A stretch of DNA of 35,287 bases from Lachnospiraceae bacterium (lineage in GTDB: Bacteria; Bacillota; Clostridia; Lachnospirales; Lachnospiraceae). The notes below the pieces were generated by a model. It searched no databases and was not told where the DNA came from. It saw only the letters and a list, made by a program, of their open reading frames with translations. The first letter of the stretch is position 1. Every line of letters starts with the position of its first letter. A program made the translations under genes and the position numbers. The stretch covers positions 1-35,287 of the forward strand of contig JAILCB010000009.1 of assembly GCA_024680595.1 (NCBI GenBank). Reading direction: 5' to 3'. Of this stretch, positions 4,028-34,830 are shown piece after piece.

Positions 4028-4912
4028 ATGAGCGATTACAAATTGACCTGTTGTTCTACGGCGGACTTGTCGGCCGGGGAGTATAAGAGCCGGGGTATAG
4101 AGTGGGTTCCTTTTCATGTGGAGATTAATGGGAAGGAGTATCTGGACGACAGAAAGGATATTTCCATTGAGGACTTCTATGGTCTGGAGCGTGAGGGGGC
4201 CTTTGCAAGAACCTCCCAGGTCAATGAGGAGCAATATAAGGAGATGTGGGAGCCTTTTCTGAAGGACGGTCTGGATATTCTGCATCTGACCCTTTCCTCC
4301 GGTATTTCCGGCACCATCAATTCTGCAAATTTGGCGGCGGATGAGCTCCGGGACAAGTATCCTGATAGGAAGCTTTATGTGGTGGATTCTCTCTGCGCCT
4401 CTTCAGGCTATGGTTTATTCATGCTGTATCTGGCGGATTTGAGGGACCGGGGGAAGTCCCTGGATGAGCTCAGAGACTGGGCAATTGCAAATCGCCTGAA
4501 GATGAATCATTGGTTTTTTGCCAGCGATTTGAAGAGCTTTGTCAGGGGGGGCAGAATCTCTGCCGCCAGTGGAGCGATTGGGACTCTATTGGGAATTTGC
4601 CCTTTATTAAATGTGAATAATGAGGGGAAATTGATTCCCCGGGCCAAGATTCGCACCAAGAAGAAGGTAATTGAGGAAATTGTGAAACGGATGGCTGAGC
4701 TGGCGGATGACGGTCTGAACTATTCCGGAATGTGCACTATCTGTCACTCGGATTGCGCTTCAGATGCGGAGCAGGTACGGCTTTTGGTGGAGAAGCGGTT
4801 CCCCCAATTGCAGGGCAAGGTGAAAATGTGCAGGATCGGAACGGTCATTGGGGCCCATACAGGAACCGGAACTGTGGCCTTATTCTTTATGGGGAAGGAA
4901 CGGGGGGAGTGA
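4028..4912 (+). CDS. DegV family fatty-acid-binding protein
   Basis: DegV/FakB proteins hold a fatty acid for phosphorylation by the FakA kinase and act in the cytoplasm in exogenous fatty-acid use. The N-terminal CCSTADLSAGEY resembles the family's STADL(S/T) start. ARTSQVNEEQYKE, LHLTLSSGISGTINSA (ligand-contact Ser region) and VVDSLCASSGYG all fit. FASDLKSFVRGGRIS and the C-terminal GTVIGAHTGTGTVALFF are typical of the second domain. At 294 residues it is of usual length. The ATG has GAGGGGGG just upstream. No fakA is in the window, so the substrate is unknown. Confidence 0.9.
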   Translation: MSDYKLTCCSTADLSAGEYKSRGIEWVPFHVEINGKEYLDDRKDISIEDFYGLEREGAFARTSQVNEEQYKEMWEPFLKDGLDILHLTLSSGISGTINSANLAADELRDKYPDRKLYVVDSLCASSGYGLFMLYLADLRDRGKSLDELRDWAIANRLKMNHWFFASDLKSFVRGGRISAASGAIGTLLGICPLLNVNNEGKLIPRAKIRTKKKVIEEIVKRMAELADDGLNYSGMCTICHSDCASDAEQVRLLVEKRFPQLQGKVKMCRIGTVIGAHTGTGTVALFFMGKERGE

Positions 4913-4973
4913 GCTCTTGACAGGCTCTTATGTATAAAGGAACGGGAGGAGTGAGCCTTTGACAGACTCTTTT
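4888..4973 (+). repeat. 42-bp tandem duplication spanning the DegV stop codon
   Basis: The last coding bases of the DegV gene with its stop codon (GGAACGGGGGGAGTGAGC and on to GACAGGCTCT) are repeated about 42 bp downstream with several substitutions (GGAACGGGAGGAGTGAGC and on to GACAGACTCT). The second copy is noncoding. Confidence 0.8.
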
Positions 4974-5128
4974 GGTTCTTGCTCTTGCCGGGGTAGGATA
5001 GATTTTGCAGCAGGACAGGATGACCGTAGCGAAGACAGCAGGGATTCGGTTTGGAAGATGTCAGCTGACGCTGGGGCGGATTTCGCGCCGGGTCTCGCAA
5101 GCGAGACTTAAATGAGGTAGGGATACGG

Positions 5129-5827
5129 ATGAAATTTATTCGGGTAAATGAAAATGAAATACGCTGTGTTCTGACTCATGAGGAACTGGTCCAATTTGGA
5201 ATCGAAATCGATGACATTGTGGCTAAGAATATGAAGACCAGGCGTTTTTTCCAGGCTCTTTTGGAACAGGCGGGGAAGGCCCTGGGTATGACCGGGCCAA
5301 AACAGATTCGGATTACCAGTGCTCAGATCAATGTTCTGGAGGACAAGAGTATTTCCATTCTTTTCCGTGAGGAAAAGAAGGAGCTGCCTGTAGAGCTGCG
5401 TCGGGAGATACTGAATGTCATGGAGGAACAGCTCAAGCTTGGCGGAAATGACACTGAAGAGGCTATGTCTGAACTTCGAAGGCTCCGGGAGGAATTGAAT
5501 GCAGAGGAGGATGATAGGGATTATTCCAGAGAATCCTTCCTGGTACAGTTTGACTCCATAGAGGATGCTGTAAACTATGCCCGGGAGTGCTCTTTCTCGG
5601 GTCAGGTTATCAGCCGCTTTTATAAGGATCTAAGAGACGATAGCTATTTTCTCATTGTCCTTCGGCATGTTCTAACGGATGAGGTTTTTCGCAGGCTTCG
5701 GATGACTGCGGAGGAATTTGGAAGGGTGCCTGAGCTGTCTCTGGCGGCCAGGGCCTATTTCATTGAAAACAGCGAGTGCCTCATTGAGGAGAATGCGTTT
5801 GCGGAGCTTTCCGCCCTGAATTCATGA
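5129..5827 (+). CDS. mecA: MecA-family adaptor protein
   Basis: MecA proteins deliver substrates to the ClpC unfoldase and negatively control competence and other programmes in Firmicutes. The N-terminal domain (MKFIRVNENEIRCVLTHEEL) and the C-terminal domain (residues about 135-225, with FDSIEDAVNYARE) match the family's two-domain plan, joined by an acidic, charged linker (about residues 100-135). At 232 residues it is of normal length. AGGTAGGG lies about seven bases before the ATG. Its stop overlaps the upstream-most ATG of the TtcA-type gene, so the two are probably co-transcribed. No clpC is in the window. Confidence 0.82.
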   Translation: MKFIRVNENEIRCVLTHEELVQFGIEIDDIVAKNMKTRRFFQALLEQAGKALGMTGPKQIRITSAQINVLEDKSISILFREEKKELPVELRREILNVMEEQLKLGGNDTEEAMSELRRLREELNAEEDDRDYSRESFLVQFDSIEDAVNYARECSFSGQVISRFYKDLRDDSYFLIVLRHVLTDEVFRRLRMTAEEFGRVPELSLAARAYFIENSECLIEENAFAELSALNS

Positions 5828-6759
5828 AGGGCGGCGGAGGAGAAATGGAATCAACAGCAGGGCCCGGGATTCAAGGGACTCCGGACAGGGAGATAAGGGA
5901 AGAGACTAGTGATATTACCCCTGACGGGAGACATGCCCCTATGCTGGACACAGAGCGCAGCATTATTAAGAAGTTCCGGCGCCAGCTCTGGACCAGGTTT
6001 ATCCGGGCCATACAGACCTATGACCTGATACAGGACGGGGATAGAATAGCGGTTTGTATTTCCGGGGGTAAGGACTCCACTTTGATGGCCAAGCTCTTTC
6101 AGGAGCTGTACCGGCATGGGAAGAGGAATTTTGAGCCTGTCTATCTGGTCATGGATCCCGGCTATAATGAGGCAAATGCCGCTAGAATCAGGGAGAATGC
6201 AGATCTTCTCCATATTCCAATTCAGGTTTTTCATTCCCAGATATTTCGGATTGTGGAGGGAGAGGGGGATTCGCCCTGTTATCTCTGTGCCAGAATGCGC
6301 CGGGGGGCGCTTTACAGCCATGCCCGAGATTTGGGCTGTAATAAGATTGCTCTCGGCCATCATTATGATGATGTCATAGAGACAATCCTCATGGGTATGC
6401 TATATGGGGGCCAGATTCAGACCATGATGCCCAAGCTGCACAGCACCAATTTTGAGGGAATGGAGCTTATCCGGCCCATGTATTTGATTCGGGAAGAGGA
6501 TATTAAAAAGTGGCGGGATTATCACCACCTAAGCTTTCTGGCCTGCGCCTGCAGATTCACGGAGAAGCTCAGTCCTGAGGCCCTATCGGAGACCACGGGG
6601 TCTAGCAGGGCGGACGTGAAGAGGCTTATCCGGGAGCTCCACGACAAGAATGAATTCGTAGAGGCTAATATTTTTAAGAGTGTGGAGAATGTGCATTTGG
6701 ACACTCTCATTGCCTATAAGCAAAAGGGTGTGAAGCACAGCTTTTTGGATGATTATTAG
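5824..6759 (+). CDS. ttcA: TtcA-type tRNA thiolation PP-loop ATPase
   Basis: An adenylating sulfur-transfer enzyme that would make 2-thiocytidine at position 32 of tRNAs. The PP-loop VCISGGKDSTLMAK is intact. CYLC is followed later by a third cysteine region (CACRF), the cysteine arrangement expected of TtcA, which uses an iron-sulfur cluster. GHHYDDVIETILM is the conserved second half of the ATPase core. The first ATG (5824) overlaps the mecA stop. An ATG at 5845 has GGAGGAG close upstream, and one at 5941 would start right at the conserved SIIKKFRRQLW region, so the first 40 residues (Gly/Glu/Thr-rich) may be an extension or untranslated. The exact modified base is family inference. Confidence 0.85.
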   Translation: MKGGGGEMESTAGPGIQGTPDREIREETSDITPDGRHAPMLDTERSIIKKFRRQLWTRFIRAIQTYDLIQDGDRIAVCISGGKDSTLMAKLFQELYRHGKRNFEPVYLVMDPGYNEANAARIRENADLLHIPIQVFHSQIFRIVEGEGDSPCYLCARMRRGALYSHARDLGCNKIALGHHYDDVIETILMGMLYGGQIQTMMPKLHSTNFEGMELIRPMYLIREEDIKKWRDYHHLSFLACACRFTEKLSPEALSETTGSSRADVKRLIRELHDKNEFVEANIFKSVENVHLDTLIAYKQKGVKHSFLDDY

Positions 6760-6854
6760 GAAATAACCCTTTGAATTGTAGAATAGGGTTAGGCATGGCG
6801 GTTTATAGAATGAAAATAAATTTGACGTGATATTGAATCAAGGAGGATAGGTGT

Positions 6855-8027
6855 ATGGGAATGATCGAGAAGGTTATGGAAGAGTTTCGGACCAGGTTTG
6901 GGTCGGAAGGCGATATCCGCGGTTACTTTGCCCCGGGCAGGGTGAATCTGATTGGAGAGCATACGGACTATAATGGGGGTCATGTTTTTCCCTGTGCCCT
7001 GGATATGGGACATTATGCGGTTGCCAGGAAGAGAAATGACAGGAAAATCCGCTGGTTTTGTACGACTTTTCCCGATAGCGGGGTGCAGGAAGCGGATATC
7101 GGGGATTTAGCCCCTAATGACAACGGACTCTGGTATGATTACCAGCAGGGCGTGCTCTGGGCCTTTGAACAGAATGGCTATCAGATTCCCTATGGCTATG
7201 ACATGGTTATGGCAGGGGATATGCCGGCAGGCGCAGGTCTTTCCGCTTCGGCTTCCATCGAGATGATTGCCGCTATTATTCTGAAGGATCTCATTGAAGT
7301 GCCTATTTCCCAGGTGGATTGCGCCAGGATGGGTCAGTATTCTGAGAATAAATATAATGGAATGAATTGTGGTATTATGGATCAGTTTGCCTCTGCCATG
7401 GGCAAGAAGGACTGTGCTATTTTCCTGGATACAGCCACATTGAAGTATGATTATGTGCCCCTGAATCTGGCTCATGAGAAGATTGTGATTACCAATAGTA
7501 ATGTGAAGCATTCTCTGGCGGGCAGCGCCTATAATGACCGGAGAAGGGATTCGGAGAATGCCCTGGAGGAGCTGCAGACGGTGATTGATATCAAGACTCT
7601 GGGTGACCTGGACGAGAAGACCTTTGAGGACAAGAAGGGTGTCATTACCGATCCTGTCTGCAGGAAGAGGGCCCGTCACGCGGTCTATGAGAATTTGAGA
7701 ACCATTGCCGCTGTAGATTATCTGAAAAACGGGGATTTGAAGGCTTTTGGAAAACTCATGCATGATTCCCATGTGTCCCTGAGGGATGATTATGAGGTGT
7801 CCTGTAAAGAGCTGGATATCCTTTCGGAAGAGGCCTGGAAGATTCCGGGCGTCATTGGATCCCGTATGACCGGTGGCGGCTTTGGCGGCTGTACCGTGAG
7901 TATCGTGGAGAATGATGCGGTTGAGGAGTTTAAGAAAAAGATTAGCGCCGTCTATGGTGAGAAGACCGGGCTGAAGGCGGATTTCTATATTGCTGATGCA
8001 TCGGACGGTGCGGGACGGATTCTGTAA
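6855..8027 (+). CDS. galK: galactokinase
   Basis: Phosphorylates alpha-D-galactose at C1 with ATP, the first committed step of the Leloir pathway. It carries the galactokinase signature APGRVNLIGEHTDYNGG (about residues 27-43), the GHMP ATP-binding loop PAGAGLSASASIE and the C-terminal GSRMTGGGFGGCTVSI. Length is 390 residues, as expected. AAGGAGGAT lies seven bases upstream of the ATG. galT follows 332 bp downstream, and the gap is mostly a tandem array that begins inside the last codons of this gene. Confidence 0.97.
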   Translation: MGMIEKVMEEFRTRFGSEGDIRGYFAPGRVNLIGEHTDYNGGHVFPCALDMGHYAVARKRNDRKIRWFCTTFPDSGVQEADIGDLAPNDNGLWYDYQQGVLWAFEQNGYQIPYGYDMVMAGDMPAGAGLSASASIEMIAAIILKDLIEVPISQVDCARMGQYSENKYNGMNCGIMDQFASAMGKKDCAIFLDTATLKYDYVPLNLAHEKIVITNSNVKHSLAGSAYNDRRRDSENALEELQTVIDIKTLGDLDEKTFEDKKGVITDPVCRKRARHAVYENLRTIAAVDYLKNGDLKAFGKLMHDSHVSLRDDYEVSCKELDILSEEAWKIPGVIGSRMTGGGFGGCTVSIVENDAVEEFKKKISAVYGEKTGLKADFYIADASDGAGRIL

Positions 8028-8252
8028 GGAAAAGGGAGTCTGACCCGGTATGACGGGCGTGACGGATTCTGTAAGGAAAAGGGAGTCTGCCCCGGTCTGA
8101 CGGGGCGGGCGGATTCTGTATGGAATTGGGAGTCTGTTTGGTCTAAGGGTCAGGATGGATTCTGTATGGAAAAGAGAGTCTGTCCCGGTCTGAGGGTCAG
8201 GATGGATTCTGTAAGGAAAAGGGAGTCTGACCCGGTATGACGGCACGGGCGG
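8017..8252 (+). repeat. 47-bp tandem array starting inside the galK 3' end
   Basis: GGATTCTGTA begins units at 8017, 8064, 8111, 8157 and 8204 (periods 47, 47, 46, 47). Each continues with a GGAAAAGGGAGTCTG-type stretch and a CCCGGT(A/C)TGA block. The first unit includes the final codons and stop of galK, so the array was generated from the gene end. It fills most of the galK-galT gap, and no gene lies in it. Confidence 0.93.
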
Positions 8253-8359: not shown

Positions 8360-9901
8360 GTGAATATTGATGAGGCTGTAAAAAATTTGATTTCATACGG
8401 TCTGGAAAAGGGACTTTTGACAGAGGATGATAGGGTTTATACGGCAAACTTAATATTGGACTGCCTGAAAAAAGACAGCTATGATGAGCCGGAGCAGGCG
8501 ACCACAAAGGATCTGCCATCCATTCTGGAGGCAATTCTCTCCTATGCGGCGGAGAAGGGGCTTTCCGGGGATAATGGTCCGGTGGCCCGGGATCTCTTTG
8601 ATACCCGTATCATGAACTGTCTCTTGCCCCGTCCATCAGAGGTAAGGCAGAAATTCAAGGGTCTCTATGAGGAGAGTCCTGAGGCCGCCACCGACTGGTA
8701 CTACCGCTTTAGCCAGGACAGTAATTATATTAGGCGGGACAGGATTGAAAAGGATGTGAAGTGGAAGACGCCCACCGAATATGGGGATTTGGATATTACC
8801 ATTAATCTGAGTAAGCCCGAAAAGGATCCCAAGGCTATTGCCGCCGCAAAGAATGCCCCCCAGTCCTCCTATCCCAAGTGCCAGCTCTGTATGGAGAATG
8901 AGGGCTATGCGGGGAGGGTGAATCATCCTGCCAGAGAGAATCATAGGATTATTCCTATTACCATCGCGGGTTATCCCTTCTTCTTCCAGTATTCGCCCTA
9001 TGTCTATTATAATGAGCACTGTATTGTATTTAATAGAGACCATACGCCTATGAGGGTGGATAGGCCTGCCTTCGAGAAGCTCTTTGGTTTCCTGCAGCAG
9101 TTTCCCCATTATACCATTGGATCCAATGCCGATTTGCCTATTGTGGGAGGTTCCATTCTGAGCCATGACCACTTCCAGGGCGGCCGCTATGATTTCCCTA
9201 TGGCAGGGGCGGATTATCAGAGAATGTTTACGGTTCCTGGATATGAGGATGTGGAATGCGGCACCGTCAAGTGGCCCCTATCAGTTATCCGGATCCGCAG
9301 TAAGAGGCCGGACAGGCTCATTGACCTCTCGGATTATATTCTGGGTAAATGGCGGGCCTATACGGATGAGAGCGCCTTTATTTTTGCGGAGACGGACGGG
9401 GAGCCCCATAATACCATTACTCCTATTGCCAGGATGCGGGGGGATCTATTCGAGATGGATCTGGCCCTTCGCAATAATATTACAACGGAGGAATGTCCGC
9501 TGGGCGTATATCATCCCCATAATGAGCTGCATCATATCAAAAAGGAGAATATAGGGCTTATTGAGGTTATGGGCCTGGCTATTCTGCCTGCCAGGCTGAA
9601 GGAGGAGATGGCGGTTCTGAAGGATGCCATTCTCTCCGGCAAGTCACTTAGGGATGATGAGGTAATTGAGAAGCATGCGGACTGGGCGGAGGCTTTTCTG
9701 GACAAGGTCGCCAAAGAGGCTGCTTCAGAGGGGGCGGATGCCGGTGATTCGCCTCATCCCGGAGTCAATGCAGGGAATATTGATGACATTCTGAGGCGGG
9801 AAATCGGCCTGGTATTCATGCGGGTTCTGGAGGATGCCGGGGTATTCAAGCAGACGGAAGAGGGACAGGCGGCCTTTAAGCGTTTCACAGATTCCCTGTA
9901 G
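8360..9901 (+). CDS. galT: galactose-1-phosphate uridylyltransferase, class 2
   Basis: Exchanges UMP between UDP-glucose and galactose-1-phosphate, the second Leloir step. The long class 2 form (513 residues) found in Firmicutes is recognised by CQLCMENEGYAGR, PYVYYNEHCIVF, GGSILSHDHFQGG and PHNTITPIARMRG, followed by GVYHPHNELHHIKKENIGL. The start is a GTG with GGAGAGGGAG about ten bases upstream. A short extra stretch rich in Ala, Gly and Asp near residues 455-475 interrupts the C-terminal helix region, in line with the low-complexity insertions in neighbouring genes. No galE is in the window. Confidence 0.95.
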   Translation: MNIDEAVKNLISYGLEKGLLTEDDRVYTANLILDCLKKDSYDEPEQATTKDLPSILEAILSYAAEKGLSGDNGPVARDLFDTRIMNCLLPRPSEVRQKFKGLYEESPEAATDWYYRFSQDSNYIRRDRIEKDVKWKTPTEYGDLDITINLSKPEKDPKAIAAAKNAPQSSYPKCQLCMENEGYAGRVNHPARENHRIIPITIAGYPFFFQYSPYVYYNEHCIVFNRDHTPMRVDRPAFEKLFGFLQQFPHYTIGSNADLPIVGGSILSHDHFQGGRYDFPMAGADYQRMFTVPGYEDVECGTVKWPLSVIRIRSKRPDRLIDLSDYILGKWRAYTDESAFIFAETDGEPHNTITPIARMRGDLFEMDLALRNNITTEECPLGVYHPHNELHHIKKENIGLIEVMGLAILPARLKEEMAVLKDAILSGKSLRDDEVIEKHADWAEAFLDKVAKEAASEGADAGDSPHPGVNAGNIDDILRREIGLVFMRVLEDAGVFKQTEEGQAAFKRFTDSL

Positions 9902-9980
9902 GACATAGGTATCTGTATATGAAGCGCTATAAGGAATCCCATAACTTCTGGCGTTTCATAGATTCACTATAGACTATAGG
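9880..9980 (+). repeat. 71-bp degenerate duplication of the galT 3' end
   Basis: GCGTTTCACAGATTCCCTGT at the galT stop (from 9880) recurs at 9951 as GCGTTTCATAGATTCACTAT, followed in both by a similar (G)ACxATAGGT. The second copy is noncoding and diverged. Confidence 0.7.
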
Positions 9981-10120
9981 TTGACATAATCTTAAAACGA
10001 GGCCGGTTATATACAAGTAAGGTTAACATAATTTGAAAGCCGGAGCTTTCGGTTTTATCATTAAGGCTGATATAATTCCTGATTCAGGATGTTGCAGCCG
10101 GGAGAATTAGTTGACATAAT
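9981..10120 (+). repeat. TTGACATAAT motifs at about 44-bp spacing
   Basis: TTGACATAAT (9981), TTAACATAAT (10023), a diverged CTGATATAAT (10067) and TTGACATAAT (10111) are 42, 44 and 44 bp apart. This is the core motif of the 19-bp array after cbiB. The stretch from 9902 to 10215 holds no gene: only this set, the galT-end duplication and a hairpin. Confidence 0.75.
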
Positions 10121-10159
10121 TACGAGATTCTAGAGAAAAAAGATGTATTGATAGGTTTA

Positions 10160-10200: not shown

Positions 10201-10215
10201 AGGGGGTAATTAATT

Positions 10216-11475
10216 TTGGGCGAATTTTTGCGGTGGGGAGCTTTAGTCCTGCTGATTATGTTATCCGCTTTTTTTTCGGGAACGGAAACAGCCCTGACGA
10301 CAGTCAACATGATTCGGATCCGTTCTCTGGCGGAGGAGGGCAATCCGAGGGCCAAGCGTCTGATGCGGCTTCATGAGCATTCAGCAAAGATGCTTTCGTC
10401 AATTCTTATCGGTAATAATATTGTAAACATTTCAGCGTCTGCCCTGGCTACCACCATTGCCTTGGACATAGGTCTTCCAGTGGGCTTCATGACCCTATTT
10501 CTCACGGTGATCCTTCTCATATTTGGAGAAATCACACCTAAGAATGCGGCGGCTGTGTATTCGGAGCAGATATCCCTGGCTCTTTGCGGCCTGGTTTGGA
10601 TCCTAATGCAGGTTCTGACCCCGGTCATCTGGATTATCGATCTCCTTTCCAAAGGTCTTTTGTGGATCCTGCATATTGATCTTTCCAAAGCAAATAAGGC
10701 TACTACGGAGAATGAATTGCGGACCTTTGTGGATGTGAGCCATGAGGACGGGGTCATAGAACGCAGCGAGAAAAAAATCATCAATAATGTGGTGGATTTC
10801 GGGGACAGCAGGGCCCGGGACATTATGATTCCCCGAATTGATGTGACAGAGGTGGATATAGGCTCCACTTATGATGAGATCGCCCGGGTCTTTCAGGAGG
10901 ACAAGTATTCCCGCATACCCGTTTATGCAGAGTCCACGGATAATGTGGTGGGGGTTTTGCATATGAAGGACGTTTTCTTCTCGGATAAGGAGAGCTTCAA
11001 GGTCAGGGATGTAATGAGGGAGGGCTATTATACCTATGAATTAAAGCGTACCTCGGAACTGCTGCTGGATATGAAGAAAAGTTCCGTTACTATGGCTATT
11101 GTCCTAAATGAGTACGGGTCCACGGTGGGCATCATTACCATGGAGGATCTGCTGGAGGAGATTGTCGGTGAGATTCGGGATGAATATGACGAGGATGAGG
11201 TGGATATCATCCAACAGATAAATGATCAGGAATTTGATGTGGATGCCAGTGTCAAGCTGGATGATCTGAATGATGCGCTGGGAACGGATTTTCATTCGGA
11301 GGATTATGATTCTCTGGGCGGTTTCATCATTGAAAAGCTGGATCATCTGCCGGTGGAGGGAGAGACCGTGGAGACTGAGGACGGTATTATGCTGGAGGTT
11401 TTGAGCGTGGCCAAGAACCGGGTTATTCGGGTCGATATAAGGCTGCCCAAACCCGCAGAGCCGGATAAGGTGTAG
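10216..11475 (+). CDS. CNNM/CorC (HlyC) family membrane protein with CBS pair
   Basis: Members are linked to divalent-cation (mainly Mg2+) efflux or homeostasis. The N-terminal DUF21 membrane domain (residues about 1-175) shows SAFFSGTETALTTVN, SSILIGNNIVNI and LIFGEITPKN. A cytoplasmic CBS pair (about 190-310) starts at RDIMIPRIDVTEVD and contains EYGSTVGIITMEDLLEEIVG. The C-terminal CorC_HlyC domain (about 330-410) has SLGGFIIEKLDHLPVEGE. The start is a TTG preceded by TAGGGGG nine bases upstream; no ATG is available near the conserved N-terminus. Length (419 aa) is typical. Older names such as hemolysin are historical. Confidence 0.9.
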   Translation: MGEFLRWGALVLLIMLSAFFSGTETALTTVNMIRIRSLAEEGNPRAKRLMRLHEHSAKMLSSILIGNNIVNISASALATTIALDIGLPVGFMTLFLTVILLIFGEITPKNAAAVYSEQISLALCGLVWILMQVLTPVIWIIDLLSKGLLWILHIDLSKANKATTENELRTFVDVSHEDGVIERSEKKIINNVVDFGDSRARDIMIPRIDVTEVDIGSTYDEIARVFQEDKYSRIPVYAESTDNVVGVLHMKDVFFSDKESFKVRDVMREGYYTYELKRTSELLLDMKKSSVTMAIVLNEYGSTVGIITMEDLLEEIVGEIRDEYDEDEVDIIQQINDQEFDVDASVKLDDLNDALGTDFHSEDYDSLGGFIIEKLDHLPVEGETVETEDGIMLEVLSVAKNRVIRVDIRLPKPAEPDKV

Positions 11476-11486
11476 GCCTTAAGCAC

Positions 11487-11712
11487 ATGGCATCGATTGT
11501 GGAATTGGAAATAAGGGATTTAAGGCTGCAGAACCAGATAGGTTGCAGGTCTCAAGCACATGGCATCGGTTGTTGAATTGGATACAGCGGATTCAGGGTT
11601 GCAGAGCTCTATTCACATGGCATCGGTTGTTGAATTGGATACAGCGGATTAGAGTTTCAGAGCCTTATTCAAATGGCATCGATTGTGGAACTGGATACAG
11701 CGGATTCAGACG
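11487..11712 (+). repeat. repeated pseudo-start units upstream of fumC
   Basis: ATGGCATCGRTTGTKGAAYT begins at 11487, 11560, 11617 and 11673 (spacings 73, 57, 56), each followed by GGATACAGCGGATT or a variant. The fourth copy is in frame with fumC and could extend it by 20 residues; the earlier copies are not clearly in use. It lies between the CNNM-type gene and fumC. Confidence 0.88.
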
Positions 11713-11732: not shown

Positions 11733-13133
11733 ATGGATTACAGAAAAGAGCATGATTCTATGGGGGAGGTTCTGGTGCCCCTGGACCGGTATTGGGGCGC
11801 CCAGACCCAGAGAAGCAAGGAGAACTTTCGGATTGGCGTAGGACTGGAGACCATGCCGATGGAGATTATTCATGCCTTTGGAATCCTCAAGGCCGCAGCT
11901 GCCCGTGCCAACCATTTCCTGCTGCCGGATAGGATGACGGACAGGAAATTAGAGGCTATTGAGACTGCGGCCCTGGAAGTGGCTCAGGGCAAACTGGATG
12001 ACCATTTCCCCCTGGTGGTATGGCAGACTGGCAGCGGGACCCAGTCCAATATGAATGCCAATGAAGTAATTGCCAATAGAGGCAATGAATTGGCCGGGGA
12101 TGCGGAAAATGGGGCAGCCGGAGAAAAGCTCCTGCATCCCAATGATGACGTGAATATGAGCCAGTCCTCCAATGATACCTTTCCAACGGCCCTTCATATA
12201 GCGGCAGTCCTGTCTGTGGAGGATAGGCTGATTCCTGCGGCAGAGGAACTGGTCCGGGTTCTGTCCGGGCTGGAGGAAGAGAATCAGGATATTGTAAAGA
12301 CCGGCCGCACTCATTTGCAGGACGCGGTGCCCATCCGCTTTTCCCAGGAAATTAGCGGCTGGAGGAGCTCTATAGAAAGGGATATAGAGCTATTGCGGCT
12401 TTCTCTAAAGCCCCTAAAGGAACTGGCCCTGGGCGGTACTGCCGTAGGAACTGGCCTCAATGCGCCTCAAGGCTTCGGGGAACGGGTTGCACAGGAAATA
12501 TCGGCTCTGACAGGGAAGAGCTTTGTCACAGCGGATAATAAATTTCACGCCCTGAGCTCCAGGGATGAAATTGTCTTTGCCCATGGCGGATTAAAGTCTC
12601 TGGCGGCAGACCTAATGAAGATAGCCAATGATGTGCGCTGGCTTGCCAGCGGCCCCCGCTGCGGTCTGGGGGAGATTACGATTCCGGAGAATGAGCCCGG
12701 AAGCTCCATTATGCCGGGAAAGGTGAATCCTACCCAATGTGAGCAGGTCACTATGGTGGCGGTTCAGGTCATGGGAAATGACTGTGCGGTGGGAATGGCG
12801 GCTTCCCAGGGAAATTTCCAGCTGAATGTATTTCTGCCTGTTCTTGCCTATAATTTCCTGCAATCGGCAAGATTATTAAGGGATTCCATTCAGTCCTTCA
12901 CACAGAATTGCGTTATCGGCATCAAGGCCAACAGGGACAAGATGAAGGGGAATCTCCATCAGTCTCTTATGCTGGTGACAGCCCTCAATCCCTATATTGG
13001 ATATGAAAATGCCGCAAAAACCGCCAAGTATGCCTATAGCAAGAATATCTCCCTTAAGGAGGCCTGCCTGGAGCTGGGCTTTCTAAGCGCGGAAAGGTTT
13101 GAAGAGGTATTTCATCCCGAGGACATGGCCTGA
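11733..13133 (+). CDS. fumC: fumarate hydratase, class II
   Basis: Interconverts fumarate and malate in the cytoplasm; the oxygen-stable, homotetrameric, cluster-free fumarase. SGTQSNMNANEVIANRG, GRTHLQDAVP and the superfamily signature GSSIMPGKVNPTQCEQ are all intact. I chose the ATG at 11733 because AAGGAG lies about nine bases upstream and the product then begins MDYRKEHDSMGEV, the normal FumC N-terminus, giving 466 residues. An in-frame ATG at 11673 would add 20 residues, but it lies in the repeated units. The last 60 bases, with the stop codon, are duplicated directly downstream. Confidence 0.96.
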   Translation: MDYRKEHDSMGEVLVPLDRYWGAQTQRSKENFRIGVGLETMPMEIIHAFGILKAAAARANHFLLPDRMTDRKLEAIETAALEVAQGKLDDHFPLVVWQTGSGTQSNMNANEVIANRGNELAGDAENGAAGEKLLHPNDDVNMSQSSNDTFPTALHIAAVLSVEDRLIPAAEELVRVLSGLEEENQDIVKTGRTHLQDAVPIRFSQEISGWRSSIERDIELLRLSLKPLKELALGGTAVGTGLNAPQGFGERVAQEISALTGKSFVTADNKFHALSSRDEIVFAHGGLKSLAADLMKIANDVRWLASGPRCGLGEITIPENEPGSSIMPGKVNPTQCEQVTMVAVQVMGNDCAVGMAASQGNFQLNVFLPVLAYNFLQSARLLRDSIQSFTQNCVIGIKANRDKMKGNLHQSLMLVTALNPYIGYENAAKTAKYAYSKNISLKEACLELGFLSAERFEEVFHPEDMA

Positions 13134-13194
13134 ACTGGGCTTTCTAAGCGCGGAAAGGTTTGAAGAGGTATTCCATCCCGAGGACATGGCCTGA
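13074..13194 (+). repeat. 61-bp tandem duplication of the fumC 3' end
   Basis: CTGGGCTTTCTAAGCGCGGA and the following 40 bases through the TGA stop (13074-13133) are repeated at 13135-13194 with essentially one substitution. The near-identity points to a recent event. The second copy is noncoding. Confidence 0.95.
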
Positions 13195-13648
13195 ATGTGG
13201 GGAAGCAGGTCTGTAAATCCCATAGATTATTTCTTCCCATGAGTGCTGTACATAACAAAACTATTTGCACCTCTCACTCCTGTCCCTATGAAGTACTTCT
13301 TGATCAGGGAATCATAGGCACAATGGACACCGAACTGGTTCAAGCTTTCCTCATTCCCTATAGGACAATAATCCGGTATAATAATATTAGATTGTGTGCG
13401 AGGCAAATCGAATCCGCATTAAGTCTCGGATTGTTTTGAAGGCAGTGTAAGCAATTCTCCGCTTCAAATACGTTAGTATTAAGCGGGGTGCTGCTTGCCT
13501 GTTTCATGAGTAAGGGGCGAAGCCGGTTGCGAATGACCGCTTACCTTTGCGATTATGAGAAGGTGACACATTGGCAAATCCCACATTTATCCTGTAGGAA
13601 TAAGGGATTTCTGATATTCGCCATTCTGTAGGAGAGGAGTAGGTTCTA
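13195..13648 (+). other. gene-poor region between fumC and folE
   Basis: I see no supportable gene. A short open frame (13197-13439) has no ribosome binding site and no family resemblance. The right half holds a hairpin-forming element (13437-13501) that shares a motif with the region after the PBP gene. GGAGAGGAG before folE is its ribosome binding site. Confidence 0.5.
13437..13501 (+). repeat. dispersed hairpin element, copy A
   Basis: AAGGCAGTGTAAGCAAT, a short gap and CCGCTT are followed by AAGCGG, TGCT and TGCCT, so the segment can fold on itself (CCGCTT/AAGCGG, AGCA/TGCT, AGGCA/TGCCT). The left 30 bases recur almost unchanged at 24914-24943. Confidence 0.6.
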
Positions 13649-16710: not shown

Positions 16711-16734
16711 GGGCTGCTTTATAATGAGATTATA

Positions 16735-16905
16735 GAATCCGCGCATTCCGGTCGGGCCAGCTATGACCTAAGGAATGCGCGAATGTATGCCGGGGTTTCT
16801 GTGTCCCTTATGGAATCCGCGCATCCTGGCCGGGCTTGCTATGACCTAAGGAATGCGCGAATGTATGCTGGGTTTTCTATACCCTTATGGAATCCGCGGA
16901 TTTGA
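16735..16905 (+). repeat. 77/78-bp hairpin-containing tandem repeat
   Basis: GAATCCGCG begins at 16735, 16813 and 16890. In unit 1, CGCGCATTCC (16740-16749) pairs with GGAATGCGCG (16772-16781), with a nested GGTC/GACC. Unit 2 keeps the right arm but has changes in the left arm. Unit 3 is cut off after GAATCCGCGGATTT. It lies between the converging RibD_C-HD and DUF6935-like genes and may act as a terminator region, though no T-run follows. Confidence 0.9.
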
Positions 16906-18567: not shown

Positions 18568-21500
18568 GTGAATAATTTGAATTGTAATAATAGAATTGAA
18601 CTTCTTTCTCCGGCGGGCAATCCGGACTGTTTCTATGCGGCGGTTGCGGCCGGGGCGGATGCGGTTTATGCAGGCCTGTCTGCCTTTAGCGCCAGGGCTT
18701 ATGCGGGAAATTTCTCTATGGAGGAATTTCTGAAGGCCATGGACTATGCCCATTTATTTGGGAGAAAGCTCTATCTCACATTAAATACTCTTGTGAAAGA
18801 GCGGGAGTTTTCCTTAATTACGCCTCTCCTAGATCCCCTTTACCAAAATGGGCTGGATGGAGTCATTGTACAGGACATGGGGGTTATTTCCTTTCTCAGG
18901 GAGAATTATCCGCTCCTTCCCCTTCATGCCAGTACACAAATGGCCCTGACAGGGGTTTCCGGAGCCCGTTTATTAAAGGAGATGGGCGCCTGTAGAATTG
19001 TGACGGCCAGGGAGCTCTCTATAGGTGAATTAGAGGAAATCTGCAGGGATTCCGGCGTAGAGGTGGAGTGCTTTATCCATGGGGCCATGTGCTATTCCTA
19101 TTCCGGCCTTTGCCTCATGTCGTCTATGCTGGGGGGCAGGAGCGGGAACCGGGGCCGGTGCGCCGGCAGCTGCCGCCAGCCCTATAGCTGTGTGGAGGAG
19201 GATGACCTGAATTCCGGCCGCAGGAGGGACCCGATTTATCCCTCTAGTATAGAGGATTCCTACAAGGGCCGGAATCGTGGGCGGTCTGATTCTTCCGAAG
19301 AAGAAGGTTCCTGGAGGGGCCGGAAGCGGGGACGGTCTTATTCTTCTGGGGAAGAAGACCCTTGGAGGGGGCAGAAGCGGAACCAGTTCTATTCTTCCGG
19401 GGAAGAAAACCAGAAGTGGGGCCAGTTCAATTCTTCCGGGGAAGAAGACCCCTGGAGGGGGCAGAAGCGGGGACGATCCGATTCTTCCGGGACGGAAGGG
19501 GTCAGGAAGAGCCGTAAGCGTGGGCAGTCGCATTCTCCCGGGGCTGAAGGTTCCTCAATGGATGGGGAGGAATATCTCCTGTCTATGAGAGATCTCTGCG
19601 GCATCGAGAGGATTCCGGAACTAATCCGAATCGGTGTTTCCAGTCTCAAGATTGAGGGGCGGATGAAGAGCCCTGCCTATGTGGCCGGGGTCACGGAGAT
19701 TTATCGGAAATACATTGATCTTTATTATGAAAGGGGAGAGTTTTCGGTGGATCCCACCGATATGGAGGCCCTGATTTCCCTTTATTCCAGGGGGGGAAGT
19801 CCGGACGGCTATTTCAGGCGGAGAAATGGCAGGGATATGATTACCCTGACCCCCGGCGGCTATAAACGGGCTTTGCCGGAGGATTTTTCCGTGAAAAGGC
19901 TCCACATGCCTTTAGACGGGGAGGCCCGGATAGAGGCGGGGCAGCCTATGCGCCTGTATGTAAAGGATACGTCAGGGGCTAACTGCTTCACTGCCCTGGG
20001 GCAGGTGGCGGACAGGGCCGAGAAAAGGGCTGTTTCACAGGCAGATGTACGTAAGCAGCTATTAAAAACGGGAGACTCTTTCTTTTCGTTCAAATCTCTT
20101 TCTATTGACTTAGGAGGAGAAGTTTTTGTCCCGGTAAGTACCCTTAATTCCCTTAGAAGAGAAGCACTGGAAGGCCTGAAAAATAGCATTCTTCTGCCTT
20201 TTAAGAGAAATCTTCCGGATAAATATGAAGACAAGGCCAATGAGGATGGGGCTTCTAGCTCAGTCTGGGCAAAAGTAGGACAGGGAGGCGGAGAGGCTTC
20301 TTGTCTCCCGGGCTTTATTCTGCAGTTTGAGGATCAGGCCAGGGCGGAAGAGGTCTGCCGCTTGTTGGCGGAGAGCAGGAATGGGTTTGCCGGTATCTCT
20401 GCAATCTGCTGTCCGGAAAGGCCTTCTCTTCTTTCAAAATATGATGATTCGGATAGGGAGGGCATGGGTGCAGCCGGAGAGGGGGAAATAGCCTGGATTC
20501 AGCTGCTTCCCCATATTCTGCGATCCCAAAGTGCACCTCTGTCTGGGGGCGGGATGACGGATTCAGGCAGAAAAGGGGGGCGGGATACTGCTCCACAAAA
20601 AGTGAACGCAGAAACAATTGACGGTATGACGGATTCAGGCAGGAAAGAGGAGCAGAATACTGGCCGTTCAGAATCGTCCCCTTGTCAGGAGACTTACGGT
20701 GAAGGGCCTCGGCTCTTTGACTTTTCTGCAGAGGGGATCCTGGTACGAAATTATGAGGAGCTCTTTCTCCTAAAGGAGAGCCCTTATGCCGGAAGGATTA
20801 TAGCGGATGCCGCTCTCTATACCTGGAACTCAAGGGCTTGTCGGGAGATTAGGAGATTCGGGATTAGTGAAGACACGGTTCCCTATGAGCTCAATGAAAA
20901 GGAGATTCGGCAGAGGGGTATTGGGAATTCCAGTATAATATTGTATGGAAGGGCACCCCTCATGATTTCTGCCCAATGTATCCACAAAACTAGGACCGGG
21001 AAATGCGGCAGGCGGCTTCCGGAGGGCAGGAGAGGAGAACTCACCGATCGGAAAAAGGCGGTTTTTCCAGTTCAAATGGACTGCCGGAACTGCTATAATG
21101 TCATCTATAATTCTCTACCCCAGTCCCTGCACAGGGATTTTGACAAAATCCAGGCCTTAGAACCGGCTTCTATGAGGCTTTGCTTTACGGTGGAAGAGGC
21201 CGGTGAGTGTCTGGATATCATTAAGTATTATGTAAACCTATATTTCCGCCAGAGACCGGCGGGCCCGGGACAAAGGCAAACTGGCCGTCCGGAAGGGCAT
21301 ACGTCCGGGGAGAGGCATGCGGCGCCTGGAGACAAAGCCTTACAAAATAAGTCCCGAGAGGATCAGCATTTCCAGGACGAGGCTCTACAGGACGAGGCTC
21401 TACAGGACAAGGCTCCGCAGGACAAGGCCCTACAGGACAAAACCCTACAGACAAGGTCTCTACAGGACAAGGCTTTGCAGGGCAAGTCCTTAAAGGGCGG

Positions 21501-21604: not shown

Positions 21605-23113
21605 ATGAATCAAGCAATTCTAGGGCTTTCCCGATATGTTTTGGCGATTTTCATCGCCTTCTATACCCTTCACTGTTTCCTGACCTTCGGGGTTCATTCG
21701 GAGAAGGAAAGGGGAGGCTCCTACTTATTACAAACTATATTTCTATGTGTCATCCATATCTATGGTTTCGTCGTCCTCTACCTAAGGGAAGACAATGAAT
21801 GGATGCTCTTTTTTTGTGCCCTGCAGGAGGTCCTCTTTATTGGAATAATAGCCCTGTACCGGGTGCTCTATCCGGAAGCCAACCGGCTTGTTCTCAATAA
21901 TATGTGCCTGCTTTTGGCAGTGGGCTTTGTGATGCTGTCCCGGCTGTCCATGGGGCGGGCTCTGAGGCAGTTCTTCATTACAGTGATTTCCGTGGGACTT
22001 ACTCTGGTGGTACCCTGGTTTATGGAGAAAAGGGCACAGTTAAAGCGTTATTCCTGGCTTTTCGGTATTTTTGGCCTGTGCGCCCTGCTGGCAGTGAGGA
22101 TTGCGGGTTCCGTTACAAATGGCTCTACCATAACCTATTCCATTGGAGGGGTGACCTTCCAGCCCTCTGAATTTGTGAAGATTATCTACGTCCTCTTCCT
22201 GGCGGGAGTTCTGTCCGGACATGGCGTTAGCAGGGGTCATACACCTGTGGTGAATATGGGCTCCAATGGAGGCTTTGGCGAACAGGGGGCGGCCTGGGAA
22301 AATCGGGCCGGCTTTCAGCCGGATTCCGGGAAAAAGGGATTTTTAGGATTTTTTAAGGGGGAGAGCCACGAGAACCGGGATGGTTTTCAGACGGATGCGG
22401 TTTATGAGAATCCGATACCCCTGTCAAATATTCTTCCCGCGGCAGGTCTGGCGGCCGCCCATGTGGCTGTGCTGGTGGTTTCCAGGGATTTGGGGGCGGC
22501 CCTTATCTATTTCATTATCGGGCTTGCCATGATCTACACCGCCACCAGGAACCGGCTGACGGTGGCTGTGGGAGCGGTTCTGGGCTCTGTAGGCGCAGTT
22601 CTGGGCTATGTTCTCTTCTCCCATGTCCGGACCAGGGTGCGTGCCTGGAGGGATCCTTTCCGCTACATTGACGGACAGGGCTATCAGATTACCCAATCTC
22701 TCTTTGCCATTGGAACGGGGGGCTGGTTTGGAATGGGTCTTACCATGGGGTCTCCCAACAAAATCCCGGTGGTAGAGCAGGATTTCATTTTTTCCGCTAT
22801 TTCAGAGGAATTGGGTTGTATTTTCAGTTTTTGTCTAATCCTTATCTGCTTCAGCACCTTCCTAATGTTTATGAATATCGGAATGTCTATGAGAGATCCC
22901 TTCTATAGGCTGCTTGCCGTGGGCTTCGCTACGAACTATATTTTCCAGGTATTTCTGACCATCGGGGGCGCTACGAAATTCATCCCTCTGACCGGTGTGA
23001 CCCTGCCTTTGGTGAGCTATGGCGGTTCTTCGATTCTGTCTACTCTTATTATGTTTTCTGCGGTTCAGGGAATTTATATTATGAGGGCTAAGGGAAGGGG
23101 CGGAAGAGCCTGA
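21605..23113 (+). CDS. FtsW/RodA/SpoVE-family (SEDS) glycan polymerase
   Basis: SEDS proteins polymerise peptidoglycan glycan strands together with a partner class B PBP; the next gene encodes one. About ten membrane segments are visible. SIGGVTFQPSEFVKIIYVLFLAG, VVSRDLGAALIYFIIG, YQITQSLFAIGTGGWFGMGL and the C-terminal LPLVSYGGSSILSTL are family hallmarks. A hydrophilic insert (about residues 208-270, with ENRxGFQxD twice, 72 bp apart in DNA) lies in the loop after the QPSEF helix, which I believe faces the cytoplasm. 502 residues is long because of the insert and an N-terminal extension. Which SEDS subtype it is cannot be told here. It begins 19 bp after the U32 stop. Confidence 0.9.
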   Translation: MNQAILGLSRYVLAIFIAFYTLHCFLTFGVHSEKERGGSYLLQTIFLCVIHIYGFVVLYLREDNEWMLFFCALQEVLFIGIIALYRVLYPEANRLVLNNMCLLLAVGFVMLSRLSMGRALRQFFITVISVGLTLVVPWFMEKRAQLKRYSWLFGIFGLCALLAVRIAGSVTNGSTITYSIGGVTFQPSEFVKIIYVLFLAGVLSGHGVSRGHTPVVNMGSNGGFGEQGAAWENRAGFQPDSGKKGFLGFFKGESHENRDGFQTDAVYENPIPLSNILPAAGLAAAHVAVLVVSRDLGAALIYFIIGLAMIYTATRNRLTVAVGAVLGSVGAVLGYVLFSHVRTRVRAWRDPFRYIDGQGYQITQSLFAIGTGGWFGMGLTMGSPNKIPVVEQDFIFSAISEELGCIFSFCLILICFSTFLMFMNIGMSMRDPFYRLLAVGFATNYIFQVFLTIGGATKFIPLTGVTLPLVSYGGSSILSTLIMFSAVQGIYIMRAKGRGGRA

Positions 23114-23330
23114 CCTTCTGAAGACGACAGGTGGTATGGATTTGAAAATTCCGCGCATAAAGGCGGGGATGACTTCTGATCTAGAGAAGGAGGGACTGCT
23201 GAGGCCTGGACTTCTCTAGATGACAGGCGGGGATGACTTCTGGCCCGGAGAAGGATGGACTGCTGAGCCCTGACCTTCCAAAGGCAGGAGGGAGGCCAGA
23301 TTCGGCAATCCCGCGTACAAGGCGGGCCAG
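23105..23330 (+). repeat. 64-bp degenerate repeat spanning the ftsW-like stop
   Basis: GCCTGACCTTCT at the stop codon recurs as GCCTGGACTTCT (from 23204) and CCCTGACCTTCC (from 23268). The full 64-bp unit, starting GGCGGGGATGACTTCTG, appears at 23162 and 23226. The stretch has no gene. Confidence 0.8.
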
Positions 23331-26394: not shown

Positions 26395-26526
26395 CGCAGG
26401 CTACAAGGCAAGGCCTCATGGGGGGCGCTTGCTCACCAGTGAGGCTTTGGCGACAGCCCATCATCGAAAGTCCGAAGGACCTGAGATGTGGGCGTAGCCG
26501 GAATCGAGGGGGGCTTTCTTCCCCTC
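26395..26526 (+). ncRNA. candidate structured RNA or dispersed element, copy 1
   Basis: Starts GCAGGCTA and shares with the copy at 34546 the block GAGATGTGGGCGTAGCCGG and the following AATCGAG. Predicted stems are GCCTCA/TGAGGC (26413-26445), GTCC/GGAC (26470-26480), GCCC with CAT against ATG with GGGC (about 26456-26494) and GAGGGG/CCCCTC (26506-26526). I do not recognise it as a known riboswitch. No same-strand gene follows it. Confidence 0.5.
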
Positions 26527-31458: not shown

Positions 31459-31477
31459 AATTAAAACCTCCATTATT

Positions 31478-31494: not shown

Positions 31495-31522
31495 TCCTTG
31501 TTATTATATTAAACAACGCTTC

Positions 31523-32902: not shown

Positions 32903-33010
32903 GTCCTTCTCCTTATCTAATCCTGATATTTGTAGCAGCTATTCTGTTATCGTATATATAATCTGATGAATAAAATCCTTCATTTCTATTCAGGTTTGGC
33001 TCAAAACTAT

Positions 33011-33312
33011 GAAACTGTGCCTAAATCGGCCCGTTTTCGCGGATTTAGGCACGCATGGGGGCTTCCGTCCGCTGGTCAGCGAGGGTGTGGAAGCGGAAAC
33101 TGTGCCTAAATTGGCCCGTTTTCGCGGATTTAGGCACACCTGGGGGCTTTCATCCGCTGGTCAGCGAGGGTGTGGAAGCGGATACTGTGCCTAAATCGGC
33201 CCGTTTTCGCGGATTTAGGCACACTTGGGGACTTTCATCCGCGGGTCAGCGAGGGTGTGGAAGCAGAAACTGTGCCTAAGTCGGCCTGTTTTCGCGGATT
33301 TAGGCACACCTG
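33011..33312 (+). repeat. 85-bp tandem array with perfect 11-bp hairpins
   Basis: Units begin at 33011, 33096, 33181 and 33266, exactly 85 bp apart (three full units and a fourth, partial one). Each holds the arms GTGCCTAAATC and GATTTAGGCAC (arm 33017-33027 and 33042-33052 in unit 1) with a 14-base loop, followed by a GGTCAGCGAGGGTGTGGAAGC spacer. In unit 4 the left arm has AAGTC in place of AAATC, which leaves a G-T pair. It lies between the aldehyde dehydrogenase promoter and the Dam gene's stop. No gene lies between 32903 and 33408. Confidence 0.95.
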
Positions 33313-33408
33313 GCCTGAATTTGGCTTTTTTCTTGGTTTTTCGGCTTTTTGCTGATGAAAATACCCTCCTCATGAAGACCGATTGCCAAAATGTGGGAAC
33401 AGACTCTT

Positions 33409-34245
33409 TTACCCGTAATTTCTCACCACCACCTCGTCTACCTCGCCCCGGCCGCTGGCTACCGAGTTCACGGCCCGTTTGGCCTGCACGAGGGTGATAT
33501 GGTAGGCGGAATATTGGTCCAGAATAAAGGGGGTGGCTGAGTTGGAGAGCATAAAGCGGATTCCTCTCCGATCTAGCTGGTCACAGCTTTCCCGCAGACG
33601 GATTTGATCTTCCTTTGAGAAGCCGGCCTTTGCGTATCCTGTAAAACTGGATGTCTGGGATACCGGGTCATAGGGCGGATCCAGATAGACGAAGCAATCG
33701 TTGTCCACCTGAGACAATACCTCTTCATAGTCCAGAGAGGAAAAGGAGACCTGGGCCTCATTAAAGTAGGCGCTTACCGCCAGGAGTACCTGTTCATTTA
33801 CGATATTGGGGTTATGGTAATTCCCAAAGGGGGCATTGAATTCCCCGGCCTTATTGACCCGATAGAGCCCATTGTAGCAGGTTTTGTTGAGATAGAGGAT
33901 TCGGGCCGCCTTTTGGATGTCTGTAAGAGAACTGTATTTTTCTTTATCCCGGTCCCATTCCCGCACGGAATAGAAAAAATCTGATTCATTCCGGTAGTTC
34001 TTTAATTCTTCAATTAATTCCTGAACGTTTTCCTTAATTACTAAATAAACCCTTATAAGGTCCGAATTGATGTCATTAATTAGGGCCTTTTCCGGCTGGA
34101 GATGGAAGAGCAGAGCACCGCCGCCGACAAATGGTTCACAGTATGAAGTTATTTGCTTTGGAAGAAGTGGGGAAAGGCTGTCTAGAAGCTGCCTTTTCCC
34201 GCCCACCCATTTCAGGACGGGCATGACCAGCCTGTTCTTTATCAC
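33409..34245 (-). CDS. dam: DNA adenine methylase (Dam, D12 class)
   Basis: Transfers a methyl group to adenine N6, with GATC the typical family target. LKWVGGKRQLLDSL, the AdoMet motif EPFVGGGALLFHL, the LNKTCYNGLYRVNKAGEFN block and the catalytic DPPYDPVS are all present. 278 residues is normal. The GTG at 34245 has AAGGAG about 12 bases upstream; an ATG at 34224 (MPVLKWVGGK) is an alternative. No restriction enzyme lies beside it in the window, so it looks like an orphan methylase. Confidence 0.93.
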   Translation of the reverse strand: MIKNRLVMPVLKWVGGKRQLLDSLSPLLPKQITSYCEPFVGGGALLFHLQPEKALINDINSDLIRVYLVIKENVQELIEELKNYRNESDFFYSVREWDRDKEKYSSLTDIQKAARILYLNKTCYNGLYRVNKAGEFNAPFGNYHNPNIVNEQVLLAVSAYFNEAQVSFSSLDYEEVLSQVDNDCFVYLDPPYDPVSQTSSFTGYAKAGFSKEDQIRLRESCDQLDRRGIRFMLSNSATPFILDQYSAYHITLVQAKRAVNSVASGRGEVDEVVVRNYG

Positions 34246-34325
34246 TGTTCGAAGATGCTCCTTTTTTCATTTCCTTTTGCCACTATTATAGACCATGGAC
34301 AAAAGAGAGGCAAATGTGCGGGCGT

Positions 34326-34450
34326 GCATCTGTGAGTGTATAGGAGAATTGTCTGGGTGGCTTTAGGGTGCTGTGTGCAGGCGTGCATATTATCGTGCAT
34401 CTGTGAACGAGCAGGAGAATTGTCCGGCTGGCTTTAGGTTCCTGAGTTGG
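34326..34450 (+). repeat. 71-bp duplicated unit
   Basis: GCATCTGTGA begins at 34326 and 34397. Both are followed by AGGAGAATTGTC, TGGCTTTAGG and a CCTG or GCTG end. The second copy differs at several positions. It has no gene. Confidence 0.75.
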
Positions 34451-34502
34451 TGGGGATGGACTGGGCGTGCGGGATAGAAGAAAAAGTGTTTTCATGATTT
34501 AA

Positions 34503-34538
34503 GCCATGAACAATATGAGACATATTGCTCATGGCCTT
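34503..34538. terminator. strong hairpin before the second dispersed element
   Basis: GCCATGA-CAATATG (34503-34517) pairs with CATATTG-TCATGGC (34521-34535), 14 of 15 pairs, with an AGA loop and CTTTGATTT after it. It may terminate or may belong to the element that follows. Confidence 0.6.
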
Positions 34539-34545
34539 TGATTTG

Positions 34546-34675
34546 TGCAGGCTAGGAGCTAAAGTCTCATGGGACGCCTGGGTCCCGATGAGACACAAGA
34601 CGCAGCCCTTCATCGAAGGCCTGAAAGGCCTGAGATGTGGGCGTAGCCGGAATCGAGCAGGGGAGATTCCCTCCT
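34546..34675 (+). ncRNA. candidate structured RNA or dispersed element, copy 2
   Basis: Begins GCAGGCTA as in copy 1. Stems are GTCTCAT/ATGAGAC (34564-34594), AGGCCT/AGGCCT with a GAA loop (34617-34631 region), GCCC with CAT against ATG with GGGC, and a GGGA/TCCC end. Stem positions that differ from copy 1 mostly change on both sides. The single-stranded block GCGTAGCCGGAATCGAG is identical. Confidence 0.5.
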
Positions 34676-34734
34676 ACTATTCGATTTGGTTCTGAAGGTT
34701 TTCTATCAATGAAATTAGGAGGGGCGGTTAGTCT

Positions 34735-34830
34735 TCACTCCATTACCATATTGAAGAACCTTTTCGATCGTGACACCCTGGGGATTGTCAACACATCACT
34801 CCATTACCATATAGAAGAAACGCTCCAGTT
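34735..34830 (-). repeat. 61-bp duplication of the alcohol dehydrogenase 3' end
   Basis: TCACTCCATTACCATAT at 34796 (the stop end of the gene on the minus strand) recurs at 34735 with the next bases (TGAAGAACC for AGAAGAAAC) also similar. The outer copy is noncoding. Confidence 0.85.

Follow-up and report, generated by a model that had tools for sequence, protein, structure and literature searches.

Why are many genes in one Lachnospiraceae genome followed by copies of their own last bases? The window analysed here, 35,287 nucleotides long, is a whole contig (JAILCB010000009.1) of a metagenome-assembled genome (MAG) of 3,216,399 bases in 318 contigs that is 85% complete and 4% contaminated. 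A preliminary description of this DNA had reported at least six genes in which the last coding bases, the stop codon and some downstream DNA are directly repeated, and had proposed a recurring process that makes intergenic DNA from gene ends. The stop-spanning tail copies in the window genes were confirmed as real. Of the gene ends tested in this genome, about one in seven carries decaying copies of its own last bases, and among the genomes sampled the pattern is strong only in this one.

The window was searched with Tandem Repeats Finder (TRF) and by ungapped self-comparison, and the gene names were checked against Pfam. Each gene tail, taken as 75 coding and 25 downstream bases, was aligned to the spacer that follows it and compared with 300 dinucleotide shuffles per gene, p = 0.0033 being the floor of this test. 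Three of the 25 genes called had too short a spacer, leaving 22 gene ends, and a downstream tail copy with p < 0.02 was found at seven of them. The stop codon was covered in all seven alignments, which are as follows.

4895-4974, forward strand: tail of the DegV gene (DegV domain) with its stop codon (4910-4912) and one further copy; 37 nt aligned at a spacing of 42 nt, 87%; p = 0.0033.
8004-8243, forward strand: tail of galK (galactokinase domains) with its stop codon (8025-8027), present 5.1 times by the TRF count in units of about 47 nt; p = 0.0033.
9880-9981, forward strand: tail of galT (9880-9910), whose stop codon lies at 9899-9901, with a copy at 9951-9981 that has diverged; about 31 nt at a spacing of 71 nt; p = 0.0033.
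11455-11710, forward strand: tail of a CNNM/CorC-family gene with its stop codon (11473-11475), in a 73-nt unit followed by units of 56-57 nt; p = 0.0033; TRF, self-comparison and Pfam.
13066-13195, forward strand: tail of fumC with its stop codon (13131-13133), in a 61-nt unit; the copies at 13071-13131 and 13132-13192 are 97% identical; p = 0.0033.
23068-23278, forward strand: diverged tail of a SEDS/FtsW-family gene (stop codon 23111-23113), with clear 64-nt repeats at 23161-23214 and 23225-23278, 85%; p = 0.013, marginal.
34735-34819, reverse strand: tail of an iron-containing alcohol dehydrogenase gene that ends with the stop codon (34796-34819) and its copy at 34735-34758; 24 nt with one mismatch (96%) at a spacing of 61 nt; p = 0.0033.

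Five of the six genes reported earlier thus stood at the floor of the test, the SEDS gene was marginal, with its clear 64-nt repeat starting only 48 nt past the stop codon, and the CNNM/CorC-family case had been overlooked. TRF arrays cross the stop codons of DegV, galK and fumC and the end of the CNNM/CorC-family gene, and self-comparison adds the SEDS and alcohol dehydrogenase genes. The range of copies reported earlier, from near-identical in fumC to diverged in galT, was found again. A homology search recovered the second fumC copy as a C-terminal fumarase fragment, and the galT tail reached an alignment score of 40 against a shuffle maximum of 39. The CNNM/CorC-family array ends 22 nt upstream of the likely fumC start at 11733, where AAGGAG precedes the ATG. 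An array over the called fumC start probably reflects an error in the start call, as the ten closest full-length homologues begin at called residues 15-22.

The same question was put to a larger sample of the genome, which consisted of the window and the initial 20 kb of each of contigs 1-60 (596,406 bases, 16,270 of them N; 18.5% of the MAG) and was scanned with a simple gene caller and TRF. Gene ends of 72 bases were aligned to their own flank at score cut-offs of >= 30 and >= 36, with permuted pairings as a control. The comparison sets were parts of nine congeners (including G001, G023, G027, G041 and G047) and 80 loci kept as the named loci nearest by thiolase, mostly Lachnospiraceae and many of them Butyrivibrio. 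Among the genomes searched, the closest congener by galactokinase was 79% identical, and a second strain of the species was not found there, the best galK match being that same 79%.

The preliminary description had proposed a comparison with 5' ends and with related genomes. At a score of >= 30, copies were found at 42 of 290 stops and at 5 of 304 starts, and two of these five start copies (L145 and L196) lie more than 300 nt upstream and appear non-tandem. At >= 36 the counts were 31 of 290 stops and 4 starts, with 0 of 869 and 0 of 908 permuted pairings. In the congeners, the alignment test with a cut-off of >= 30 found a copy at 1 of 375 stops and at 0 of 420 starts; in the 80 Lachnospiraceae loci it found one at 3 of 606 stops and 1 of 635 starts. 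With gene ends treated as independent, Fisher's test gave p = 2e-9 for stops versus starts and p = 3e-15 for this genome versus the congeners. These counts, together with the longer spacers described below, bear out the proposal of a recurring process that makes intergenic DNA from gene ends. It had also named, as refuting, a scan in which stop-spanning repeats are no commoner than repeats elsewhere, and this was borne out in half: copies are about tenfold commoner at stops than at starts, but not commoner than in the rest of the spacer where spacers are short or medium.

The arrays in the sample differ by position and frame. When all 146 arrays with a period of >= 12 were assigned, 57 lay inside genes, 23 across a stop codon, 63 in spacers and 3 across a start codon. 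Periods were multiples of three in 56 of the 57 arrays inside genes, as compared with 8 of 23 at stops and 21 of 63 in spacers, and arrays within genes are thus filtered for frame. Upstream of starts, array cover rose from 2% over the nearest 30 nt to 7% at 60-90 nt and about 20% beyond 180 nt; after stops it was 9% at first, 15% at 30-60 nt and 21-25% at 90-210 nt. This asymmetry indicates that starts are protected and stops are not, although the peak of cover is not at the stop itself.

The arrays outside genes with a period of >= 25 had periods of 26-164 nt (median 63.5), 80% of them between 39 and 91, and 1.8-6.6 copies. No period above 164 was seen in arrays outside genes, although TRF was allowed periods of up to 500. 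The copies matched each other at 67-97% (median 87.5%), several arrays reaching 94-97%. Units are mostly locus-specific. The 113 arrays gave 11 related pairs, of which six lie within one locus and five link different loci; the exceptions to this specificity are an array at 33011-33313 of the window and one dispersed 90-nt unit. A dispersed element family as the source of the arrays was mostly rejected, because the units are largely unrelated between loci.

Arrays with a period of >= 30 had a density of 0.069 per kb in coding DNA and 0.445 per kb in spacers, as compared with 0.010 and 0.074 in the 80 Lachnospiraceae loci, and this genome was thus about 7-fold and 6-fold higher, respectively. 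A second count of arrays against these loci gave a similar enrichment. Neither the ratio of coding to non-coding arrays (32:73 here and 11:18 in the loci, p = 0.50) nor that of stop to spacer arrays (21:52 and 4:14, p = 0.77) differed clearly. The nine congeners had 0.019 arrays per coding kb (17 arrays) and 0.020 per spacer kb (3 arrays), and G027 and G041 together 0.047 (9 arrays) and 0.071 (2 arrays). The codirectional spacers are also 2-3 times longer than in relatives, with a median of 153 nt as compared with 47 in G001, 61 in G023, 55 in G047, 70 in G027, 62 in G041 and 75 in the 80 loci. Recognisable arrays fill 12,599 of the 93,557 spacer bases in the sample, and older copies that have decayed past recognition would add to this share.

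The need for a stop-specific process was examined by random placement. In this model, the observed periods were put at random in spacers shortened by the extra copies, with a barred zone of 0-150 nt before starts (0-120 nt in one run). The observed stop share is a rough figure in which stop-copy regions are set against arrays in other regions (39 and 38 over all spacer types). In codirectional spacers of <= 250 nt it was 19 of 40 (0.475) as compared with an expected 0.465-0.856, and in those of <= 400 nt it was 27 of 53 (0.509) as compared with 0.358-0.523. A stop-specific process is therefore not needed for codirectional spacers up to 250-400 nt. The 29 arrays in codirectional spacers without a stop copy showed no lean to the stop when 50 nt before starts were barred (mean relative position 0.52).

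We suggest that these observations are best accounted for by a high, genome-wide rate of short tandem duplication together with selection that spares duplications covering a stop codon, and we hold this explanation to be probable, though by no means secure. Across the genome, tandem duplications with a length of about 26-164 bp (median 64) would arise at a much higher frequency in this lineage than in related ones. Those inside genes would be lost unless the frame is kept and a tolerant loop is hit, and those reaching into the roughly 100 nt before a start codon would be lost because promoter and ribosome binding are disturbed. A duplication that covers a stop codon would leave the upstream gene complete and so be retained, after which it would sometimes expand to several copies and then decay by substitution and deletion. 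The outcome would be many genes trailed by decaying copies of their own tails, and unusually long spacers. The excess over relatives, the asymmetry between starts and stops, the frame filter and the size range are observed. We infer that it is the rate of duplication, rather than retention, that differs from relatives, and the duplications may originate when replication slips, or switches template, within a short length of single-stranded DNA.

Several observations weigh against this explanation. Compared to the nine congeners, spacer arrays were up about 22-fold and coding arrays just 3.6-fold, the ratio of coding to non-coding arrays was 32:73 as compared with 17:3 (p = 7e-6), and coding arrays were merely 1.5-fold over G027 and G041. 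A uniform change in rate thus fits the comparison with the Lachnospiraceae loci but not that with the congeners, where coding arrays are far less exceeded, unless the coding arrays of the congeners are largely old functional protein repeats. This disparity reduces our confidence in the explanation and is the ground for a rival based on retention. With spacers of every length included, the stop share was about twice the random expectation, at 33 of 62 (0.532; expected 0.276-0.304) in codirectional spacers and 39 of 77 (0.51; expected 0.22-0.25) when all types of spacer were pooled. This excess counts against a purely random origin and keeps targeting to gene 3' ends as a live rival, although long spacers may hide missed genes or constraints outside the placement model. 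Array cover after stops also drops to 12% at 270-300 nt. Arrays were uneven between contigs (dispersion 2.1), and three 20-kb contigs had none with a period of >= 25 outside genes; several of the array-poor contigs, but not all, have short spacers. In 29 nearly two-copy arrays, taken from inside and outside genes with runs kept above 0.7 of the period, run length minus period had a median of 0 (10-90% range -13 to 16), and no consistent flanking microhomology was found in this low-powered set. No defect was found among PolA, RecJ, MutS1 and ExoVII, in a search that covered these four repair genes and recG in a MAG lacking about 15% of the genome. Finally, the sample is only 18.5% of an 85%-complete MAG, and its gene starts come from a simple gene caller.

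Duplication could instead be targeted to gene 3' ends, where RNA polymerase that stalls or terminates, R-loops, or conflicts in termination zones would lead to fork stalling and template switching. The doubled stop share over all spacers speaks for such targeting, as does the fact that stop copies and spacer arrays exceed those of the congeners more than coding arrays do. Intrinsic terminators were recognisable at just 21 of 293 gene ends (22 of 101 in G001, 26 of 74 in G023), and termination may thus be diffuse, but in G041 they are equally rare (3 of 41) and stop copies number 0 of 40. Moreover, arrays also lie in frame inside genes and in divergent spacers, cover peaks 90-210 nt beyond the stop rather than at it, and random placement suffices in spacers up to 250-400 nt. 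We consider targeting unlikely, while giving it some weight. A further alternative is that duplications arise at an ordinary rate and surplus spacer DNA is poorly removed, because deletion bias is weak or because selection is, as in a small effective population. The long spacers, the far steeper rise of spacer arrays over the congeners and the wide spread of copy decay (67-97% match) would all be expected of it. Young, near-identical copies nevertheless exist (fumC at 97%, several others at 94-97%), and retention confined to spacers would not give coding arrays about 7-fold over the 80 Lachnospiraceae loci, which makes poor removal a rather improbable source of the pattern. A 3'-end preference or poor removal of spacer DNA could possibly act in place of the high rate or on top of it. 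In a more composite form, which we put forward only tentatively, the lineage would live with a standing mutator state for tandem duplication, focused in part on the ends of transcription, which continually turns gene tails into new spacer DNA and in-frame loop insertions and has doubled or tripled intergenic space relative to the genus.

Copies might also be kept because they serve termination or transcript stability or add structure to the 3' untranslated region, and selection for stop-proximal structure had been raised in the preliminary description. Some units form strong hairpins by eye, for example those at 16730-16898 and 33011-33313, and 5 of 21 stop units had a folding z below -2, with a median of -0.80 as compared with -0.49 for array-free 3' regions (spacers -0.80, coding 0.02). 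The mean at stops, -0.67, was however not below that of array-free 3' regions, -0.89, 22% of which fell below -2 (spacers -0.89, coding -0.15). Taken together, means and medians show no clear excess of structure at stops, and the suggestion of selection for it was not clearly supported. Different genes also mostly have unrelated units, and few gene ends (the 21 of 293 above) show both a hairpin and a U-tract. We regard a kept function as improbable. An artefact of assembly or binning would be conceivable in a fragmented MAG with 4% contamination, but the copies differ by substitutions (median match 87.5%), which speaks against an artefact of short-read assembly, and the periods inside genes keep the frame in 56 of 57 cases. 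The 28 contigs of this genome that are >= 8 kb and without N lie within 0.10 of a common tetranucleotide profile, as compared with 0.16 for the closest comparison locus, out of a set of up to 20 Lachnospiraceae loci together with parts of five congeners. With one signature common to all 28, a mixed bin was not supported, and an artefact of either kind appears very improbable.

The analogy with yeast rad27 would suggest a missing PolA 5'-nuclease as the cause, but such a loss was rejected as judged from a match of PF02739 to positions 1-163 of 164 in the MAG; the PolA polymerase domain is split over two contigs. Loss of RecJ, MutS1 or ExoVII was likewise rejected, since matches above the cut-offs were present. 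With these four predicted to be present, the excess of arrays is not explained by their loss. The recG gene is present but incomplete, running to a contig end (L269). After the DEQH motif, in the helicase domain and close to the contig end, it encodes about 100 residues in frame that derive from a repeat with a 69-nt unit.

The window holds further arrays that do not copy a stop codon:

53-291, forward strand: in-frame array inside a CobU-family gene, 15-nt unit, 16 copies; TRF and Pfam.
16730-16898, forward strand: array of a 78-nt unit, 19 nt past the stop codon of an HD/RibD-domain gene, the stop not included; TRF, self-comparison and Pfam.
19266-19450, forward strand: in-frame arrays inside a U32 peptidase gene, with 51- and 39-nt units; TRF and Pfam.
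33011-33313, no strand assigned: array of an 85-nt unit in a spacer, not derived from a stop; TRF and self-comparison.

The last of these has 42-45 nt (87-88% identical) in common with arrays on two other contigs. The dispersed 90-nt unit is a tandem element with internal inverted repeats at L167:14586-14766 and is a REP-like dispersed family; it has 31 dispersed matches, and the 20 that were listed already place it on at least 11 further sampled contigs. GACATAA motifs (TTGACATAA, TCGACATAA and variants) are repeated in two window spacers, at 2455-2553, before what we take to be a cbiD-like gene, and at 9973-10130, behind galT. Five of the six intergenic occurrences of TTGACATAA in the sampled genome fall in the window, and by their letters TTGACATAA and TCGACATAA look like promoter hexamers. 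A repeat with ctgagatgtgggcgtagccggaatcgag was seen by eye in the spacers at 26455-26512 and 34607-34657. A comparison of the window with Rfam at gathering cut-offs gave no match.

The common view is that bacteria shed DNA that has no function. A genome in which new spacer DNA visibly arises from about one in seven of the gene ends tested would make it possible to measure directly how short duplications are born, are filtered and decay, with in-frame and out-of-frame, stop and start, and young and old copies all available side by side. The pattern would point to a difference in repair, replication or population, which could be sought by comparing the lineage with its near relatives. A literature search found no prior description of gene-tail copies in the titles and abstract openings among the matches listed.

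Among known systems, the arrays are like bacterial minisatellites, or variable-number tandem repeats, in having head-to-tail units of tens of bases that are mostly locus-specific and lie in spacers or in frame within genes. They differ in that 42 of 290 gene 3' ends carry an array whose first copy is the gene's own tail, observed here in one strain. Mycobacterial interspersed repetitive units are tandem units of 40-100 bp in spacers that touch the neighbouring stop and start codons; they form one dispersed family, unlike the units here, which are mostly unrelated between loci. In size the arrays resemble the duplications of yeast rad27 (FEN1) mutants. PMC5677150 describes insertions of up to about 100 bp spread genome-wide, and cites 5-108 bp as the range given by earlier work, with repeats of 3-12 bp as mediators; 80% of the periods outside genes here are 39-91 (range 26-164). 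This likeness is an analogy only: the organism here is a bacterium with a predicted PolA 5'-nuclease domain, and no consistent junction microhomology was seen in the low-powered set above, with its median of 0 for run length minus period. Many intergenic sets of direct repeats in one bacterial lineage are also described, in PMC4679880, for the TAACTGA repeats of marine Beggiatoaceae. Those repeats share one heptamer, TAACTGA, and lie mostly just upstream of start codons, whereas the units found here are long, gene-specific and start-avoiding.

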